From: Quinella sp. 2Q5 | GTDB lineage: Bacteria > Bacillota > Negativicutes > Selenomonadales > Selenomonadaceae | DNA length: 64,000 bases | Assembly: GCA_015206785.1 (NCBI GenBank) | Contig: JADEZQ010000008.1 | Coordinates: forward strand, 1-64,000 | Direction: 5' to 3' | Part shown: piece by piece, positions 13,373 to 26,300 of the stretch | Layout of the letters: each line of letters starts with the position of its first letter | Position numbering within the stretch: position 1 is the first letter of the stretch | The notes under the pieces: model-generated | Seen by the model: only the letters and a program-made list of their open reading frames with translations | The model's database searches: none | Told to the model about the DNA's origin: nothing | Translations under genes and position numbers: made by a program

Positions 13373-14266
13373 TCACTGCAGAGCCTTGATGAGCGTGACG
13401 GTATTGTTCAACATGCGGTCGACGTAGTCCAGAAGATTTTCGGGCTTAGCCTCGCCGGTGACGATTGGGTCAAGCTCAAAAATTTTCGCGCCGGTCTCGC
13501 GGGCGATGGTCTCTGCGGCTTTTGGGGAATACTGCGGCTCGGTGAAGATGACTTTATTCGGCAGCGTGTTAAGCTTGTCGATGGTCTCTGCAAGCTCCTG
13601 CGGCGTCGGCTCAGTGCCAGGCTCGCGTTCGATGACGGCGACGATGTTCAAGCCGAATTCTGCCGCAAAATACGGGAACGCCTCGTGGAAGGTGACGATG
13701 TCTTTGTTGGGCAACATCTCCAGCGACATATGCATTTCGTCGCGCAGGGTCGTCAGCTCATCGACGTAGTCCAAGGTGTGGCGTTTGTATTTTTCGGCGC
13801 GGGCAGGATCAAGTTCGCACAACTTGGAGTTGATGTTCTTGACCTGCGCAATCGAATAGGTGATGCTCGTCCAGACGTGGGGATTGGGCTCGCCGTCTTC
13901 CATGATGGGTGTTATGTCGGGCGTGTCGGAAGCGTCGATGATCTTCAGGTTCGGGTTCTCGGCGGTGACTTTGTCGAGGAAGCTCTCCATGCCCAAGCCG
14001 TTGACGACGAGAATGTCCGCGCCCTCAAGGTTCTTCATGTCTTCGGGCGTCAGCTGATAATCGTGCAAGCAACCGGTCTGCGGCGGCGTCAGGTTCACGA
14101 CCTCAACGCCTTCGACGCCGCGGGTGATGTTCATCACGTCCAGATACATCGGGTAGAACGACGTGACAATCTTCAACGTGCCGTCGTCTTTCTTTTCGGA
14201 GCCGCAACCCGTCAGCATGAGCGTCAGCAAAATCAGCGCGACAAAAATTTTTTTCATGTCAATCAC
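13373..14266 (-). CDS. Metal (Zn/Mn) ABC transporter substrate-binding lipoprotein, ZnuA/TroA-like
   Basis: Lipobox LTGCGS; VEVVNLTPPQTGCLHDYQLTPEDMKNLEGADILVVNGLGMESF; conserved His-containing motifs. Confidence 0.88.
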   Translation of the reverse strand: MIDMKKIFVALILLTLMLTGCGSEKKDDGTLKIVTSFYPMYLDVMNITRGVEGVEVVNLTPPQTGCLHDYQLTPEDMKNLEGADILVVNGLGMESFLDKVTAENPNLKIIDASDTPDITPIMEDGEPNPHVWTSITYSIAQVKNINSKLCELDPARAEKYKRHTLDYVDELTTLRDEMHMSLEMLPNKDIVTFHEAFPYFAAEFGLNIVAVIEREPGTEPTPQELAETIDKLNTLPNKVIFTEPQYSPKAAETIARETGAKIFELDPIVTGEAKPENLLDYVDRMLNNTVTLIKALQ

Positions 14267-14269
14267 CTT

Positions 14270-15064
14270 TCAAAAGCCCGCGCCCAAATTAGACAGGTTA
14301 ACATTGACGACGATGTCCTGATAGTATGGGGCAGTGACGGCGACGCCGGCGGGTGTGTCAAAATTTTTCGGGCGGGAATCGTCTTCGGGCACAACGACCC
14401 AAAAGATGGCGTCCACTTCCCCCGACGTGAGAGCCGTCGCACGTGCCGCGCTGTCAAGCTGAATCAGCTCAATGTTCTCGTGAAGTCGTTTGGCAATTTC
14501 GGCGAGGACGGCGGTGTTGAATCCGGCGGGCGTGCCGTCAGCCAAAACCAAATCCAACGGCGGCAAGTCGCCCGTCACGCCAACGCGAATCGTCCTTGCG
14601 CCGTCGAAGGTCGGTATCGGCACGGCCGTCGGCGGCAACTTCAGTTCGCGGATAAATTTTTTCGTGATCTCGTCAAGCGTGCCGTCCGCCTTCATCGCGT
14701 TAATCGCCTCGTCAAGAGAATTTTTCAACGCGACGTCGTCTTCACGCACCGCCAAACAAAAATTGTCCGTCAGAGCGGTCGTGCGCTGTTCGTCGGAAAT
14801 TTTGAAGTCCGCGTCGGTTTCCGACATGTACTTGGCGACGATTCCATAGGTCTGAATGCTGTTGATCTGCTGCGCCTTCAACGCCATCTGCATTGAGTTG
14901 AAGTTGTCGTAGAAACTTATTTCGTCGCCAGAAATTTTTGCGGCTTGTTCGGGCGTGGAATTCAGCTGCGTCAGCGTGCCGACCTTGACGGTCTTATCGT
15001 TCGATGAGCCGCAACCCGTCAGCATAAGCGTCAGCACAATCAGCGCGGTAAAAATTTTTTTCAT
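14270..15064 (-). CDS. Solute-binding lipoprotein (SBP_bac_3-like, lobes apparently in permuted order)
   Basis: Starts MKKIFTALIVLTLMLTGCGSS (ATG 15064); C-lobe-like segment (SLDEAINAMKADGTLDEITKKF) precedes N-lobe-like segment (TIRVGVTGDLPPLDLVLADGTPAGFNTAVLAEIAKRL...SGEVDAIFWV). Confidence 0.75.
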   Translation of the reverse strand: MKKIFTALIVLTLMLTGCGSSNDKTVKVGTLTQLNSTPEQAAKISGDEISFYDNFNSMQMALKAQQINSIQTYGIVAKYMSETDADFKISDEQRTTALTDNFCLAVREDDVALKNSLDEAINAMKADGTLDEITKKFIRELKLPPTAVPIPTFDGARTIRVGVTGDLPPLDLVLADGTPAGFNTAVLAEIAKRLHENIELIQLDSAARATALTSGEVDAIFWVVVPEDDSRPKNFDTPAGVAVTAPYYQDIVVNVNLSNLGAGF

Positions 15065-20962: not shown

Positions 20963-22231
20963 TCACGGCGCGACGACGAAGTCAATCGTCAAGAGCACGG
21001 GACGCGCCGCCATGAACGCCGAATCTTTCAGCGAGCCGAGCAATCGCGATAGGTTCAAAGTCTTCGAGCCGTCGAAATTTTTTGCCGCACCGTCGACCGT
21101 CACGCTCCAAAGCTCAACCCACGGCGGCAACTTGTAACCCAGAGCCGTCGGCATCACCCGCGCGCGCACGAAATTCATCTTGCCTTCTGCCAGCGAACGA
21201 GTGGGTGTCAGCGCGACCTTGACGAAGAGATTTTCCGGACGCTTGTCGATCTTCATCAGACTAACGCGCACGTCGTTTGATTCGCGAGCAAGCCACTCGT
21301 CGCCGTTCACCGTGAAGATTTCCACGTCCGTATCGACCGCAGACAAATCCAGCGGGCAAGCTCCGAGCGGCGGCTCATACTTCCAGCTGAAGATGAACGA
21401 GGCGGGCGCGTTGAAGTCGTCCACGCCGAACTGTTTGACGCGGCTGTCGAGCCCCAACGTATCGTCCGAATAAAAATTTTCCTGCTCCTCAACGGTGAAG
21501 TTCGAGAAGTCCGCGGCGGTCTCCGTCAGGTTCCCCGACAGCAACAGATAGCCCGTGTCGTTGGGCAGAACTCTTTCGTTGAAGCGGCGCAGAAAATTTT
21601 TGACGACGGCGTCGCGACCCATGACCAGCAGATAGAACGGGCGGAAGCGTTCGGGGTTGTCCCACGAGTTGTAGCGGAACTTGGCGGCGTTCAAGCCCAC
21701 GTCAAAAATTTCGCCGTGGAACGAATTGCGAATGCCGATGACCGCGACGGCGAGCCGGTTGGCGAAAAATTTTTCGCGCAGGTTCTGCGTGACGTTGCTC
21801 CAATCCGAATCGCTCTCAAACAAATCCGTGACGATTATCGACAGATGATTCGTGTCGGCGGCGGCGACGACATTGGCGACGGCGGTAATCGGTTCGACAT
21901 AGACATCGGGCGTGGCGAATCGGCGGTGGTCTCTGCCTTCGAGCGCGTGAATCGTTTCGCCGAAGCTGAAGAACTTCACCGTGCCGAGCGCACCGCACAT
22001 GTCGCCGAGCATGTCGGGCAACGTGATGTAGACATTGCCCGCCGCGAGAGACGTGAAGCCTTTCATTGAAACCGTCGCGTCGAAGTAAACGTCGGTGTCG
22101 ATTTGTTCAGGCGCAGTCAAAGTGTTGGGCAACGTCCCCGGCAACGGCGGCACCTGCTGAACTTGTTGACCGCAACCGCAAACGATGAGCGTCGCCGCCA
22201 GCACGAGCATCAGAAAAATTTTCCGCATCAC
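20963..22231 (-). CDS. Hypothetical lipoprotein with von Willebrand A-like features
   Basis: Lipobox VCGC; DTDVYFDATVSMKGF (MIDAS-like DxTxS) and LSIIVTDLFESD; 4-nt overlap with ilvH. Confidence 0.65.
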   Translation of the reverse strand: MMRKIFLMLVLAATLIVCGCGQQVQQVPPLPGTLPNTLTAPEQIDTDVYFDATVSMKGFTSLAAGNVYITLPDMLGDMCGALGTVKFFSFGETIHALEGRDHRRFATPDVYVEPITAVANVVAAADTNHLSIIVTDLFESDSDWSNVTQNLREKFFANRLAVAVIGIRNSFHGEIFDVGLNAAKFRYNSWDNPERFRPFYLLVMGRDAVVKNFLRRFNERVLPNDTGYLLLSGNLTETAADFSNFTVEEQENFYSDDTLGLDSRVKQFGVDDFNAPASFIFSWKYEPPLGACPLDLSAVDTDVEIFTVNGDEWLARESNDVRVSLMKIDKRPENLFVKVALTPTRSLAEGKMNFVRARVMPTALGYKLPPWVELWSVTVDGAAKNFDGSKTLNLSRLLGSLKDSAFMAARPVLLTIDFVVAP

Positions 22232-22728
22232 ATTTGCTTGACGGGGATCGGTCCGCGCGAAAGAGCAATCGTCCCCGTGCGTGCAATCTCGACGATCTCG
22301 TAGTCGCTCAAGACTTCGCAGATGGCGTCGATTTTGTTTTGGCTGCCCGTCAACTCGATGACGACGTTCTCGCTGGTGATGTCGACGATTTGTGCGCGGA
22401 AGATATCCACGACGCTCACCAGGTCTGCGCGGGTCTGTTTATTGGCACGGACTTTGATCATAACCAGTTCGCGTTCAATCGACGGCGACTTGCTTAGGTT
22501 GACGATTTTAATCACGTCGATGAGTTTGCTCAGCTGATTGACGACCTGGTCAAGCTCGTTCTCCGATTCGACGCTCACGACGATATTGATTCGCGTGACG
22601 GACGGCTCCTCGGTGTAGCCCGCAGAGATGGATTCGATGTTGAAGGCGCGGCGGCTGATGAGACCCGAAACGTGCGCCAAGACGCCTGGTTTGTTTTCGA
22701 CCAGCACCGCCAGAAAATATTTCTGCAC
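22228..22728 (-). CDS. ilvH: Acetolactate synthase small subunit
   Basis: ACT domain MQKYFLAVLVENKPGVLAHVSGLISRRAFNIESISAGYTEEPSVTRINIVV. Confidence 0.94.
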   Translation of the reverse strand: MQKYFLAVLVENKPGVLAHVSGLISRRAFNIESISAGYTEEPSVTRINIVVSVESENELDQVVNQLSKLIDVIKIVNLSKSPSIERELVMIKVRANKQTRADLVSVVDIFRAQIVDITSENVVIELTGSQNKIDAICEVLSDYEIVEIARTGTIALSRGPIPVKQM

Positions 22729-22831
22729 AGAAATTCCTCCTCAAGTTCGTATTGAAAATTCGGCTTCCGCCCTGTATAATGCAAGCGTCATTTATTGACG
22801 AGCAGTAAACATCTTTCACAGGAGGTTCGCC

Positions 22832-23704
22832 ATGAAACGTTTATTCGGAGCATTATTTGCACTCATCGTCCTGTTGACCTGCGCAGGTTGCGGCGGCGGC
22901 GACAAGCCCGCTGACAAACCCGACAAACCCGCGGCTTCCGAGCAAAAGTCCGACAAGGTCGGTGCGCTCATGCCAATCGGTTTGGACGAGGCGGGCTACA
23001 AGCGTTGGACGGAGAACATCGCCGAGAGCCAGGGGCAACCCGCCGGCTACGTCAACCCGCACAAGGTGATTTTCTTCAATAGCCTCAACGATTTGGTGAT
23101 GGCACTCAAGAACCAGCAGATTGACCGCTTCGCGACGTGCAAGACCGTCGGCAACTACATCGTGGCACGCAACGACGATCTCAAGATCATCGACGACAAC
23201 TACAAACCAATCCTCGGCTTCTCTATGGCAATGGAAGAAAAGTCCGCCGCGCAGATCGAAGAGATCAACGCCGCCATCAAAGCCATGCGTGAAGACGGCA
23301 CGCTCAAAAAGCTCGTGCAGGAGAACATCGCTGACTTGGCAGGAAAAGACCCCGTCGCCAAACCCATTCCCGTCATTGAAGGCGCGGACACCCTCAAGGT
23401 TGCCGTGACCGGCGACATGCCCGCAATGGACGTCATCCTTGCTGACGGCACGCCCGCCGGCTTCAACGTCGCGTTCCTCGGTGAACTGGGCAAACGCATC
23501 AACAAGAACTTCGAACTCGTTCCCATCACCGCCGAAGCCCGCGCCGCCGCATTGTCTTCGGGGCAAGTCGACGCGCTGTTCTGGGTTATCGGCACCTACG
23601 ACCAGCAAGGCAAAGCTCTTCCCTACCCGCTCGACAACATGAGGGGCGTCGCGATTTCCACGCCGTACCTCATGGACAGCCGCATCGGTGTTGAACGCAA
23701 GTAA
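22832..23704 (+). CDS. Solute-binding lipoprotein (SBP_bac_3-like, lobes apparently in permuted order)
   Basis: Lipobox CAGCGGG; C-lobe-like NDLVMALKNQQIDRF...AINAAIKAMREDGTLKKLVQE precedes N-lobe-like TLKVAVTGDMPAMDVILADGTPAGFNVAFLGELGKRINKNFELVPITAEARAAALSSGQVDALF. Confidence 0.8.
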   Translation: MKRLFGALFALIVLLTCAGCGGGDKPADKPDKPAASEQKSDKVGALMPIGLDEAGYKRWTENIAESQGQPAGYVNPHKVIFFNSLNDLVMALKNQQIDRFATCKTVGNYIVARNDDLKIIDDNYKPILGFSMAMEEKSAAQIEEINAAIKAMREDGTLKKLVQENIADLAGKDPVAKPIPVIEGADTLKVAVTGDMPAMDVILADGTPAGFNVAFLGELGKRINKNFELVPITAEARAAALSSGQVDALFWVIGTYDQQGKALPYPLDNMRGVAISTPYLMDSRIGVERK

Positions 23705-23721: not shown

Positions 23722-23755
23722 AACCAAGCACCTCGCAAGGGGTGCTTTTTTCGTG
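23722..23755 (+). terminator. Rho-independent terminator
   Basis: AAGCACCtcgcaaGGGGTGCTTTTTT. Confidence 0.75.
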
Positions 23756-23765
23756 TCGTCAATAG

Positions 23766-25457
23766 TCACGCGTCGCCCAGAACCATTTGATCGAGCCGCT
23801 TGCCGCCCGGCACCATTGGCAGAACGTTTTCCTCTTCGGGGACGTAGACGTCGATGACAGCCGCGCCCTTCGAGAACATGATTTCGACCAGCTCGTCTTC
23901 AAGCTCTTGCGCCTTTGTCAGCCGATAGCCGCGCACGCCCATTGCGTTGGCAATCTTGACGAAGTCGCGCTTATACTTGAGCTCCGACGCCGAGTAGTGA
24001 TGATTGTAGAACAGCCGCTGCCATTGCCCGACCATGCCGAGAATGAAGTTGTGGACGATGACGATCTTTATGTCGATGTCGTGGTCAGCAATCGTGGCGA
24101 GTTCCTGAATGTTCATCATGATTGAGCCGTCGCCCGTGAAGAGCACGACGTTTTTGTCGGGGCAAGCGAGTTTGGCACCCATTGCCGCGGGCAGACCGAA
24201 ACCCATTGTGCCGAGCCCGCCGCTAGTGAGGAATTGACGGGGCTTGCGTGCTTTGAAGAACTGCGCCGCCCACATCTGGTGTTGCCCGACGTCGGTGACG
24301 GCGATGGTGTTTTCGTCGCAAATGCTGCTGATCTTGCTGATGAGTGCGCCGGGCTTAATGGCGTCTTCGGCGTCCGTCCACGTGAAGGGGTGTTCGTTGC
24401 CTTTGGCGATGGCGTCGGCTTTCCACGCGGCGAACTTTTCGGCGAAGTCCGTCGCGGAGGCGTCGAGCTTGCCTTTGAATGTCGGCAGGGAGTAACGCAG
24501 GTCACCGATGACTTTCAAATCCGCGGCGACGTTCTTGTTGACTTCGGCGGGATCAATCTCGAAGTGGACGATCTTTGCGTTGGGCGCGAAATCTTTCACG
24601 CGGCCGGTAACTCTGTCGCTGAAGCGCATGCCGATACACAAGAGCAGGTCGCAAGATTGAATCGCCATGTTCGCGCCGAAGGAGCCGTGCATTCCCGCAA
24701 AGCCCAGGTAGCCGTCGGTGTCGGGGTCAATGCAACCCAAACCCATCAGCGTGGACGTGGACGGGCAACCCAAACGTCTGATGACGTCGCGCAGTTCGTC
24801 GGTTGTGTCGGAGCTCACGACGCCGCCGCCGCAGAAAATCAGCGGGCGTTGACAATTTTCCACCGCCGCAACGACTTCGTCCACCTCAGAAACTTCGACG
24901 GGGTTCTTGCCGCTGTAGCCGCGCAGATTAATTTCGTCGGGGTAAACAAAATCAATCTCGGTGTTGAAGACGTCTGCGGCAATGTCAATCGACACGGGAC
25001 CGGGTCTGCCCGTGCGCGCGATAAAGAACGCTTCCTTCACGACGCGCGGCAGTTCGTTGGCGTCTTTGACGAGATAATTGTGTTTGGTGATGGGCGTGGT
25101 GATTCCGTAGACATCGACTTCTTGGAACGAGTCCTTGCCGATTGCGGGGTTAGCGACTTGCCCCGTGATGCAAACCAGCGGAATGGAATCCATGTTCGCC
25201 GTGGCAATGCCCGTAATCAAATTCGCCGCGCCCGGTCCTGATGTAGCGAAGACCACGCCGACCTTGCCGCTTGCTCGCGCATAACCGTCCGCCGCGTGAA
25301 CTGCGCCCTGTTCGTGCCCCGTCAGTATGTTGGGGAAGTTCATCTTGTAGACTTCGTCGTAAAGCTTCAGCACCACGCCGCCGGGGTAGCCGAAAACCAA
25401 ATCGACGCCCTCTCTCTTGAGGCTCTCCAGCAGAGCCCGCGCTCCGTTCATCTTCAA
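23766..25457 (-). CDS. ilvB: Acetolactate synthase large subunit
   Basis: ThDP-binding GDGSIMMNIQELATIADHDIDIKIVIVHN; VFGYPGGVVLKLYDEVY; 563 aa. Confidence 0.95.
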   Translation of the reverse strand: MKMNGARALLESLKREGVDLVFGYPGGVVLKLYDEVYKMNFPNILTGHEQGAVHAADGYARASGKVGVVFATSGPGAANLITGIATANMDSIPLVCITGQVANPAIGKDSFQEVDVYGITTPITKHNYLVKDANELPRVVKEAFFIARTGRPGPVSIDIAADVFNTEIDFVYPDEINLRGYSGKNPVEVSEVDEVVAAVENCQRPLIFCGGGVVSSDTTDELRDVIRRLGCPSTSTLMGLGCIDPDTDGYLGFAGMHGSFGANMAIQSCDLLLCIGMRFSDRVTGRVKDFAPNAKIVHFEIDPAEVNKNVAADLKVIGDLRYSLPTFKGKLDASATDFAEKFAAWKADAIAKGNEHPFTWTDAEDAIKPGALISKISSICDENTIAVTDVGQHQMWAAQFFKARKPRQFLTSGGLGTMGFGLPAAMGAKLACPDKNVVLFTGDGSIMMNIQELATIADHDIDIKIVIVHNFILGMVGQWQRLFYNHHYSASELKYKRDFVKIANAMGVRGYRLTKAQELEDELVEIMFSKGAAVIDVYVPEEENVLPMVPGGKRLDQMVLGDA

Positions 25458-25574: not shown

Positions 25575-26300
25575 ATGAAGCACCATCAATCCAAACTGTG
25601 CACCACCAGCGTCGAAAGTTTCGGCGTGAAGGTCGGTGCGCTCACCATCTTCGAAGACGTGAACTTTACGATTCATTGCGGGGAACTCACCGCGCTCATC
25701 GGTCCCAACGGCGCGGGCAAGTCCACGTTGCTCAAGTCCATCCTCGGCGAAGTTGATCACACCGGCTCGCTGAATTATTTCGACGCCAAAGGCGAACACC
25801 TGCGCCCCATCATCGGCTACGTGCCCCAGACGCTCAAGTTCGACGCGACCAGCCCGACCACCGTGCTCGATTTGTTCATGGCGTGTCTATCTGCGCGACC
25901 CGTCTGGCTTTGCAGTTCCAAATTCATTCGCGGGCGCGTGACGAAAAATCTTCGCCGCGTTAAAGCCGAACACCTAATCGACCGAAGGCTCGGAGCTTTG
26001 AGCGGCGGCGAACTGCAACGCGTCCTGCTCGCCCTGGCACTCGACCCCTTGCCCGATCTGCTGCTGTTGGACGAACCCGTCAGCGGCGTCGACAGAATCG
26101 GTCTGCGCATCTTCTACGAACTCGTCGCTGAACTCAAATCCGCCGAGGACATGGCAATCCTGCTCATCTCGCACGATTTGGACATGCTCGAACGTTTTGC
26201 CGACAAAGTCATCCTGCTCAACAAGCGCGTGCTAAAATTCGGCACCGTCCGCGAAGTTTTCGGCTCAGCGGAAATGCAAGAGGTCTTCCGAAACAGGTGA
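25575..26300 (+). CDS. Metal ABC transporter ATP-binding protein (ZnuC-like)
   Basis: Walker A GPNGAGKS, LSGGELQRVLLALAL, Walker B LLLLDEPVSGVD. Confidence 0.88.
   Translation: MKHHQSKLCTTSVESFGVKVGALTIFEDVNFTIHCGELTALIGPNGAGKSTLLKSILGEVDHTGSLNYFDAKGEHLRPIIGYVPQTLKFDATSPTTVLDLFMACLSARPVWLCSSKFIRGRVTKNLRRVKAEHLIDRRLGALSGGELQRVLLALALDPLPDLLLLDEPVSGVDRIGLRIFYELVAELKSAEDMAILLISHDLDMLERFADKVILLNKRVLKFGTVREVFGSAEMQEVFRNR

Follow-up and report, generated by a model that had tools for sequence, protein, structure and literature searches.

Is the lipoprotein gene at positions 22832-23704 of the 64,000-nucleotide stretch of Quinella DNA analysed here (the window) a solute-binding protein (SBP) gene of the SBP_bac_3 family with its two halves in reverse order and, if so, how did this order arise and what does the protein do? 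An earlier note on this DNA, made from the sequence alone, had described a 290-residue lipoprotein with inverted SBP_bac_3 halves; its reading frame and coordinates were recovered unchanged, with the lipobox in place, and we refer to the product as P0001. In sequence order, the lipobox LTCAGC is followed by NDLVMALKNQQIDRF ... INAAIKAMREDGTLKKLVQENI and then by TLKVAVTGDMPAMDVILADGTPAGFN ... SSGQVDALFWV. P0001 thus carries the lipoprotein signal of ABC-importer SBPs, with Cys20 as the lipobox cysteine, and G19, C20 and G21 do not vary across an alignment of 41 relatives. The gene appears to have its own promoter-like site, ribosome-binding site and terminator-like hairpin. These elements and the parts of the protein are located as follows.

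22752..22780, plus strand: sigma-70-like promoter, TTGAAA-17-TATAAT, 11 of 12 matches (consensus scan; sequence only)
22820..22825, plus strand: ribosome-binding site AGGAGG, 6 nt 5' of the ATG (sequence)
22832..23704, plus strand: permuted SBP_bac_3 lipoprotein gene P0001, 290 aa (ORF, profiles, phmmer, model)
22832..22891, plus strand: signal peptide and lipobox, residues 1-20, with Cys20 predicted to be acylated (sequence)
22892..22951, plus strand: flexible tether, residues 21-40, of low pLDDT (AlphaFold2 model)
22952..23209, plus strand: lobe 2 core, residues 41-126, which comes after lobe 1 in ordinary SBPs (phmmer, model, profile)
23210..23332, plus strand: crossover strand and two "C-terminal" helices of lobe 1, residues 127-167 (predicted structure)
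23333..23389, plus strand: linker between the old C- and N-termini, residues 168-186 (model, profile)
23390..23656, plus strand: lobe 1 core, residues 187-275, N-terminal in ordinary SBPs (Pfam, phmmer, alignment, model)
23669..23698, plus strand: crossover strand back to lobe 2, residues 280-289; the new C-terminus is the old lobe 1/lobe 2 junction (model)
23726..23747, plus strand: terminator-like intrinsic hairpin followed by a T run (sequence only)

The Pfam profile SBP_bac_3 (PF00497) matches P0001 in two stretches with 51.3 bits, against a gathering score of 26.4, and the top stretch aligns residues 188-250 with profile positions 1-63. A phmmer comparison with the PDB places residues 183-259 on positions 7-83, and residues 77-163 on positions 139-224, of the canonical structure 6svf; 4zv1 and 4prs align to the two halves in like manner. 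Since the two halves map to the end and the start, respectively, of one canonical structure, the order in P0001 is swapped. With a profile built from 11 canonical SBPs, the swapped order was found in 41 of 41 aligned family members and the canonical succession of lobe 1, lobe 2 and C-terminal helices in none. When members were un-permuted in silico, the two profile matches fused into one in many cases, for example from 58.2 + 34.6 to 94.0 bits. Exchanging the halves of P0001 itself gave no single match with the small 11-SBP profile; the merger was seen with Pfam only, where one stretch then extends over residues 1-227 on profile positions 2-128 of 132. The inversion is therefore upheld by Pfam, by the PDB comparison and by the canonical profile, and the profile check that the earlier note had proposed returned match coordinates that are swapped and never canonical, in the phmmer alignments, in the in-silico exchange and in the relatives alike. 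A tandem fusion of two complete SBPs was also considered and was discarded, since each lipoprotein ORF holds one lobe 2 and one lobe 1.

AlphaFold2, run on the 41-sequence alignment, produced a model of P0001 with a pLDDT of 84 and a pTM of 0.79, to be compared with 87 and 0.79 for a control, a canonical SBP paralogue from the same genome. Disorder in the model is confined to the signal peptide and tether (residues 1-39). Two separate incomplete domains had been named in the earlier note as the outcome that would speak against permutation; the prediction is instead one confident fold that contains all the core strands and helices, and on this model P0001 very probably has an intact bilobed structure. 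In the predicted structures, a cyclic shift by eight elements turns the order of strands and helices of the canonical in-genome paralogue exactly into that of P0001, in a comparison that omits two 4-residue helices found in the canonical model alone. Every other rotation fails to give an exact fit, and the element lengths are correlated with r = 0.89. Because of this exact rotation, together with the swapped order throughout the aligned family, P0001 is to be classed as a permuted variant rather than as an ordinary SBP_bac_3 member, and we regard it as practically certain that it is a circular permutation of an SBP_bac_3 protein. With Foldseek, the canonical control reached E 2e-26 against SBPs in the PDB, at a TM of up to 0.92, while the permuted model went no further than E 4e-7 and TM 0.3-0.5; since Foldseek aligns in sequence order, this poor placing is expected of a permutant. 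The new termini are found in the loop that, in the canonical order, connects the strand crossing out of lobe 1 to the initial strand of lobe 2. The former, PYLMDSRIGVERK, forms the present C-terminus of P0001; the latter, KVGALMPIG, now stands behind the tether. Judging from sequence and prediction, both interlobe crossovers are kept and a linker of ~20 residues joins the old termini. We infer that lobe 1 is now continuous and lobe 2 split, with the lipid anchor on lobe 2.

P0001 does not stand alone. There are eight permuted SBPs in this genome (G000): P0001, a second one in the window, a single copy on contig 2 and a tandem array of five on contig 32, the seven others being colinear paralogues of P0001 with E 3e-46 or better. 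The second copy in the window is the following.

14270..15064, minus strand: second permuted SBP lipoprotein, 264 aa, 37% identical (homology, profile order)

Directly downstream of it lies a ZnuA-type metal-binding lipoprotein gene (window 13373-14266), and a lone Zn/Mn-type ABC ATPase gene is found 11 kb away from this pair (window 25575-26300); both were assigned by eye. The permuted family is present in 51 of 65 sampled genomes of the same genus and in another genus of the same family, and its named relatives come from rumen or uncultured Selenomonadales genomes. Within the family P0001 forms a separate branch, with orthologues about 65-76% identical and array copies only about 38%; the orthologues are intact in about 21 genomes. 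The dN/dS of P0001 against six orthologues is 0.10-0.20, and the gene is under purifying selection. The seven colinear paralogues, the spread through the genus and these dN/dS values argue that the swapped order is not due to chance. One might still suspect an artefact of gene models or assembly, or an accidental fusion of two half genes, given that this Selenomonadaceae genome, of rumen type, is a draft in 42 contigs that is 79% complete. However, the order is the same in all eight copies, in 51 genomes of the genus and on a complete Selenomonas ruminantium plasmid, and every case read is a single uninterrupted ORF. The agreement of independent assemblies refutes such an artefact, to which we give almost no credence. 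Nor is the permutation an oddity restricted to this genus, since permuted SBP-permease fusions and free permuted SBPs occur in other Bacillota families. Ordinary SBPs exist alongside the permuted ones: contig 11 has one, and contig 14 has a tandem of four canonical SBP_bac_3 genes (L065:6186-9544) that precedes a permease of their own. SBP multiplication next to one permease is thus seen twice in this genome.

What, then, might P0001 do? The gene lies between the two subunit genes of acetolactate synthase.

22228..22728, minus strand: ilvN/ilvH, acetolactate synthase small subunit, divergent neighbour (sequence; conserved synteny)
23766..25457, minus strand: ilvB, acetolactate synthase large subunit, convergent neighbour (sequence; synteny)

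A lipoprotein gene of unassigned function (window 20963-22231, minus strand) sits directly 3' of ilvN and is kept with it in most orthologous loci. The earlier note had stated that no permease or ATPase gene is adjacent. This is correct for the P0001 copy, next to which no amino-acid-type permease or ATPase was found at the window locus, but not for its paralogues, which adjoin both elsewhere in the genome. On contig 32 the operon runs mreB, permuted SBPs (five or six), a GlnP/HisM-type permease and a GlnQ-type ATPase, an order kept in the five genomes examined, as far as the stretches extend, and permuted SBPs adjoin the same permease/ATPase on S. ruminantium plasmid pSRC1 and in a second genus. 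On pSRC1 the permuted SBP is WP_014431151.1 and the permease WP_158645841.1. The mreB gene (L063:13801-14862; L114-L117) was at the head of the array in every genome examined. Because the locus of P0001 is without a permease of its own, the contig-32 pair is its likely partner. P0001 would be acylated at Cys20 and tethered to the outer face of the inner membrane through lobe 2 rather than lobe 1; it would close on a small ligand in the manner of an ordinary SBP and pass it to an amino-acid-type ABC importer, namely the single permease/ATPase pair that ends the five-copy array. We consider it fairly likely that P0001 is the binding component of an ABC importer, probably that with the shared contig-32 permease; the homology of its paralogues is all that points to this partner.

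The ligand site bears on this proposal. In canonical SBP_bac_3 proteins, the Arg after "TxE" holds the carboxylate of the ligand and an Asp in lobe 2 holds its amino group. P0001 has lost both: the alignment of its relatives contains no conserved Arg column between W251 and P278, and the position of the Asp is occupied by Ser, Pro, Cys or Ala in the P0001 orthologues and by Tyr in the array copies. Elsewhere the permuted fusions mostly keep the Arg, one group of free permuted lipoproteins (f36, described below) keeps both residues, and the Asp varies among permuted relatives. With both residues gone, the ligand of P0001 is not predictable, and the protein need not bind an alpha-amino acid, or anything. 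The same loss would fit a decayed, non-binding SBP, such as a scaffold or decoy lipoprotein remaining from expansion of the array, but the dN/dS values given above, the intact orthologues and the invariance of T193, G194, D195 and P197 (the TGDxP of the lobe 1 core), F250, W251, D268 and Y279 make decay improbable. A different possibility is that P0001 is a true permuted SBP that acts as a receptor or regulator, an orphan sensor of a metabolite tied to branched-chain amino-acid synthesis. Its orthologues are divergent from ilvN in 16 of 20 loci and convergent with ilvB where the flank extends, the gene has no adjacent permease, and the protein belongs to a branch of its own with distinct binding-site residues. 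Synteny by itself, however, is no proof of function, P0001 lacks any signalling domain, and to signal from outside the membrane it would require a partner, of which none was found; we therefore consider a sensor role unlikely and favor that of an importer binding protein.

The earlier note had offered two readings, natural circular permutation and the trimming of a tandem duplication at its two ends. Both descriptions are supported and refer to one event, since the trimming of a tandem copy is the standard path to a circular permutation. In this scenario an SBP gene or domain would have been duplicated in tandem, and the leading lobe 1 and the trailing lobe 2 would then have been lost. Weak matches beyond the genus are SBP-permease fusions, from several Bacillota families, in which the SBP part also runs lobe 2 then lobe 1; most adjoin the same long ATPase. 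Three fusions (L092:565-2901, L088:5694-8066 and L094:1366-2952) have the appearance of steps along a route to permutation: L092 has the lobe order 2-1-2-1-permease, that is two permuted units, L088 has a permuted SBP on either side of the permease, and in L094 part of a lobe 2 is still present where lobe 1 adjoins the permease. Further, the permuted unit is colinear across the SBD1/SBD2 boundary of GlnP (query 32-259 on 6h30 97-322). The structure 6h30 is the GlnP of Lactococcus, in which tandem SBD1-SBD2 domains are fused to the permease; it belongs to the same importer family as the permuted systems, and the segment from SBD1 lobe 2 to SBD2 lobe 1 corresponds to the permuted unit, but both of its SBDs are complete and in canonical order. 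Because duplication with trimming at both ends fits the 2-1-2-1 fusion, the lobe 2 remnant and this colinearity, it is the most likely route. A further chain of 921 residues (L107:1612-4374, minus strand) joins a permuted SBP, a permease, a GlnQ-type ATPase and a C-terminal extension.

Free permuted lipoproteins came to light in further Bacillota families through a second search. One group of them, f36 (L118-L122, L135), retains the canonical ligand residues, and its close canonical relatives (L123, L125, L133, L136) provide a clean pair for the study of permutation. Compared with canonical SBPs of other families, f36 is up to 68% identical in lobe 1 and about 50% in lobe 2. In two lipoproteins (L132:2035-2898 and L134:2296-3117, minus strand) a second cut point lies inside lobe 2; their match to the profile begins at position 173-174 and finishes at 158-159. 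In most other permuted SBPs the cut falls near 132-148. A tree of the un-permuted SBPs, in which the bootstrap values are not fully settled and some branches are long, requires five changes of order, at least three of them forced by well-supported branches. A single origin for all permuted SBPs is rejected, with AU p values for a single clade of 0.0023 on the un-permuted SBPs and 0.0008 on the permeases. Without the f36 group the permease result is borderline (p 0.052), and with a smaller, earlier SBP set a single clade was not rejected (p 0.197). The distribution outside Bacillota was covered by one plasmid collection only; the fusion query also matched plasmids of Aeromonas caviae and Agrobacterium vitis, where the genes proved to be an ordinary SBP and permease.

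The ATPases of these systems differ as well. The contig-32 GlnQ-type ATPase (L063:7692-8813, minus strand) has a C-terminal extension of about 120 residues that matches HATPase_c_2 with 30.1 bits, against a cut-off of 27.4. Extended ATPases are also seen in L084, where the HATPase_c_2 match is weak, and in L088, L089, L091-L094, L103 and L108. The extension co-occurs with permuted SBPs and GlnP-type permeases; the canonical systems and those of f36, whose ATPase is without a long extension, do not have it. A regulatory domain is possible, and no description of an ATPase-HATPase fusion was found in a literature search outside of which most subscription papers fell. We tentatively suggest, at somewhat short of even chances, that permutation has recurred in SBP_bac_3, with at least three origins in Bacillota and two cut points, and that an old lineage has become associated with an importer of distinct type, with a HATPase_c-like ATPase, its SBP being anchored or fused through the "wrong" lobe. 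If this is true, lobe order would be functional and not neutral.

The earlier note knew of no described family with this order, which needs qualification: none was found for SBP_bac_3, but permuted SBPs have been published in other families (PMC4990184, PMC2395249). One precedent is TpMglB-2 (Tp0684) of Treponema, a permuted sugar-binding lipoprotein of type I that has been crystallised. It binds glucose with a change of conformation, is classed as a "Type Ic / Cluster Bc" SBP and is encoded among clustered ABC genes; its authors proposed that membrane tethering might favor the permuted topology (PMC4990184). Like P0001 it is a naturally permuted, membrane-tethered SBP lipoprotein, and the array paralogues of P0001 are clustered too. 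Unlike P0001 it belongs to another sequence family, and in it only N-lobe strands 1-3 have moved to the C-terminus and a fourth crossover has been added; P0001 is not of this type I class, both its halves matching the type II SBP_bac_3. The CPSARST work described a circular permutation relationship within the glycine-betaine-binding proteins, to which 2B4L (OpuAC, B. subtilis) and 1R9L (ProX, E. coli) belong (PMC2395249). These are type II SBPs linked to each other through permutation, but they form another SBP family, and a published link to SBP_bac_3 was not found. In the literature on circular permutation and SBP_bac_3, in which subscription papers were mostly outside the search, titles and abstracts yielded nothing relevant; permuted SBPs were thus known before, and within these sources we found no earlier account of a permuted SBP_bac_3.

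P0001 resembles the PF00497 proteins GlnH, HisJ and ArtJ in that both halves are homologous, the secondary-structure elements are the same, it is a lipoprotein and the GlnP/GlnQ-type operon partners are related. It differs in the rotation by eight elements, in the loss of the carboxylate Arg and amino-group Asp, and in the anchor on lobe 2. SBPs rank with the most common proteins of bacteria and are routinely used as biosensor scaffolds, of which permutants are engineered manually. In the amino-acid family nature itself supplies permutants, with canonical relatives that share up to 68% identity in the corresponding lobe; they are natural experiments on the origin of permutation, and they bear on closing, anchoring and docking and on how well the scaffold tolerates new termini. 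Permuted SBPs appear as two partial matches in domain searches, a warning for annotation; the copy on pSRC1 is annotated merely as "transporter substrate-binding domain-containing protein".
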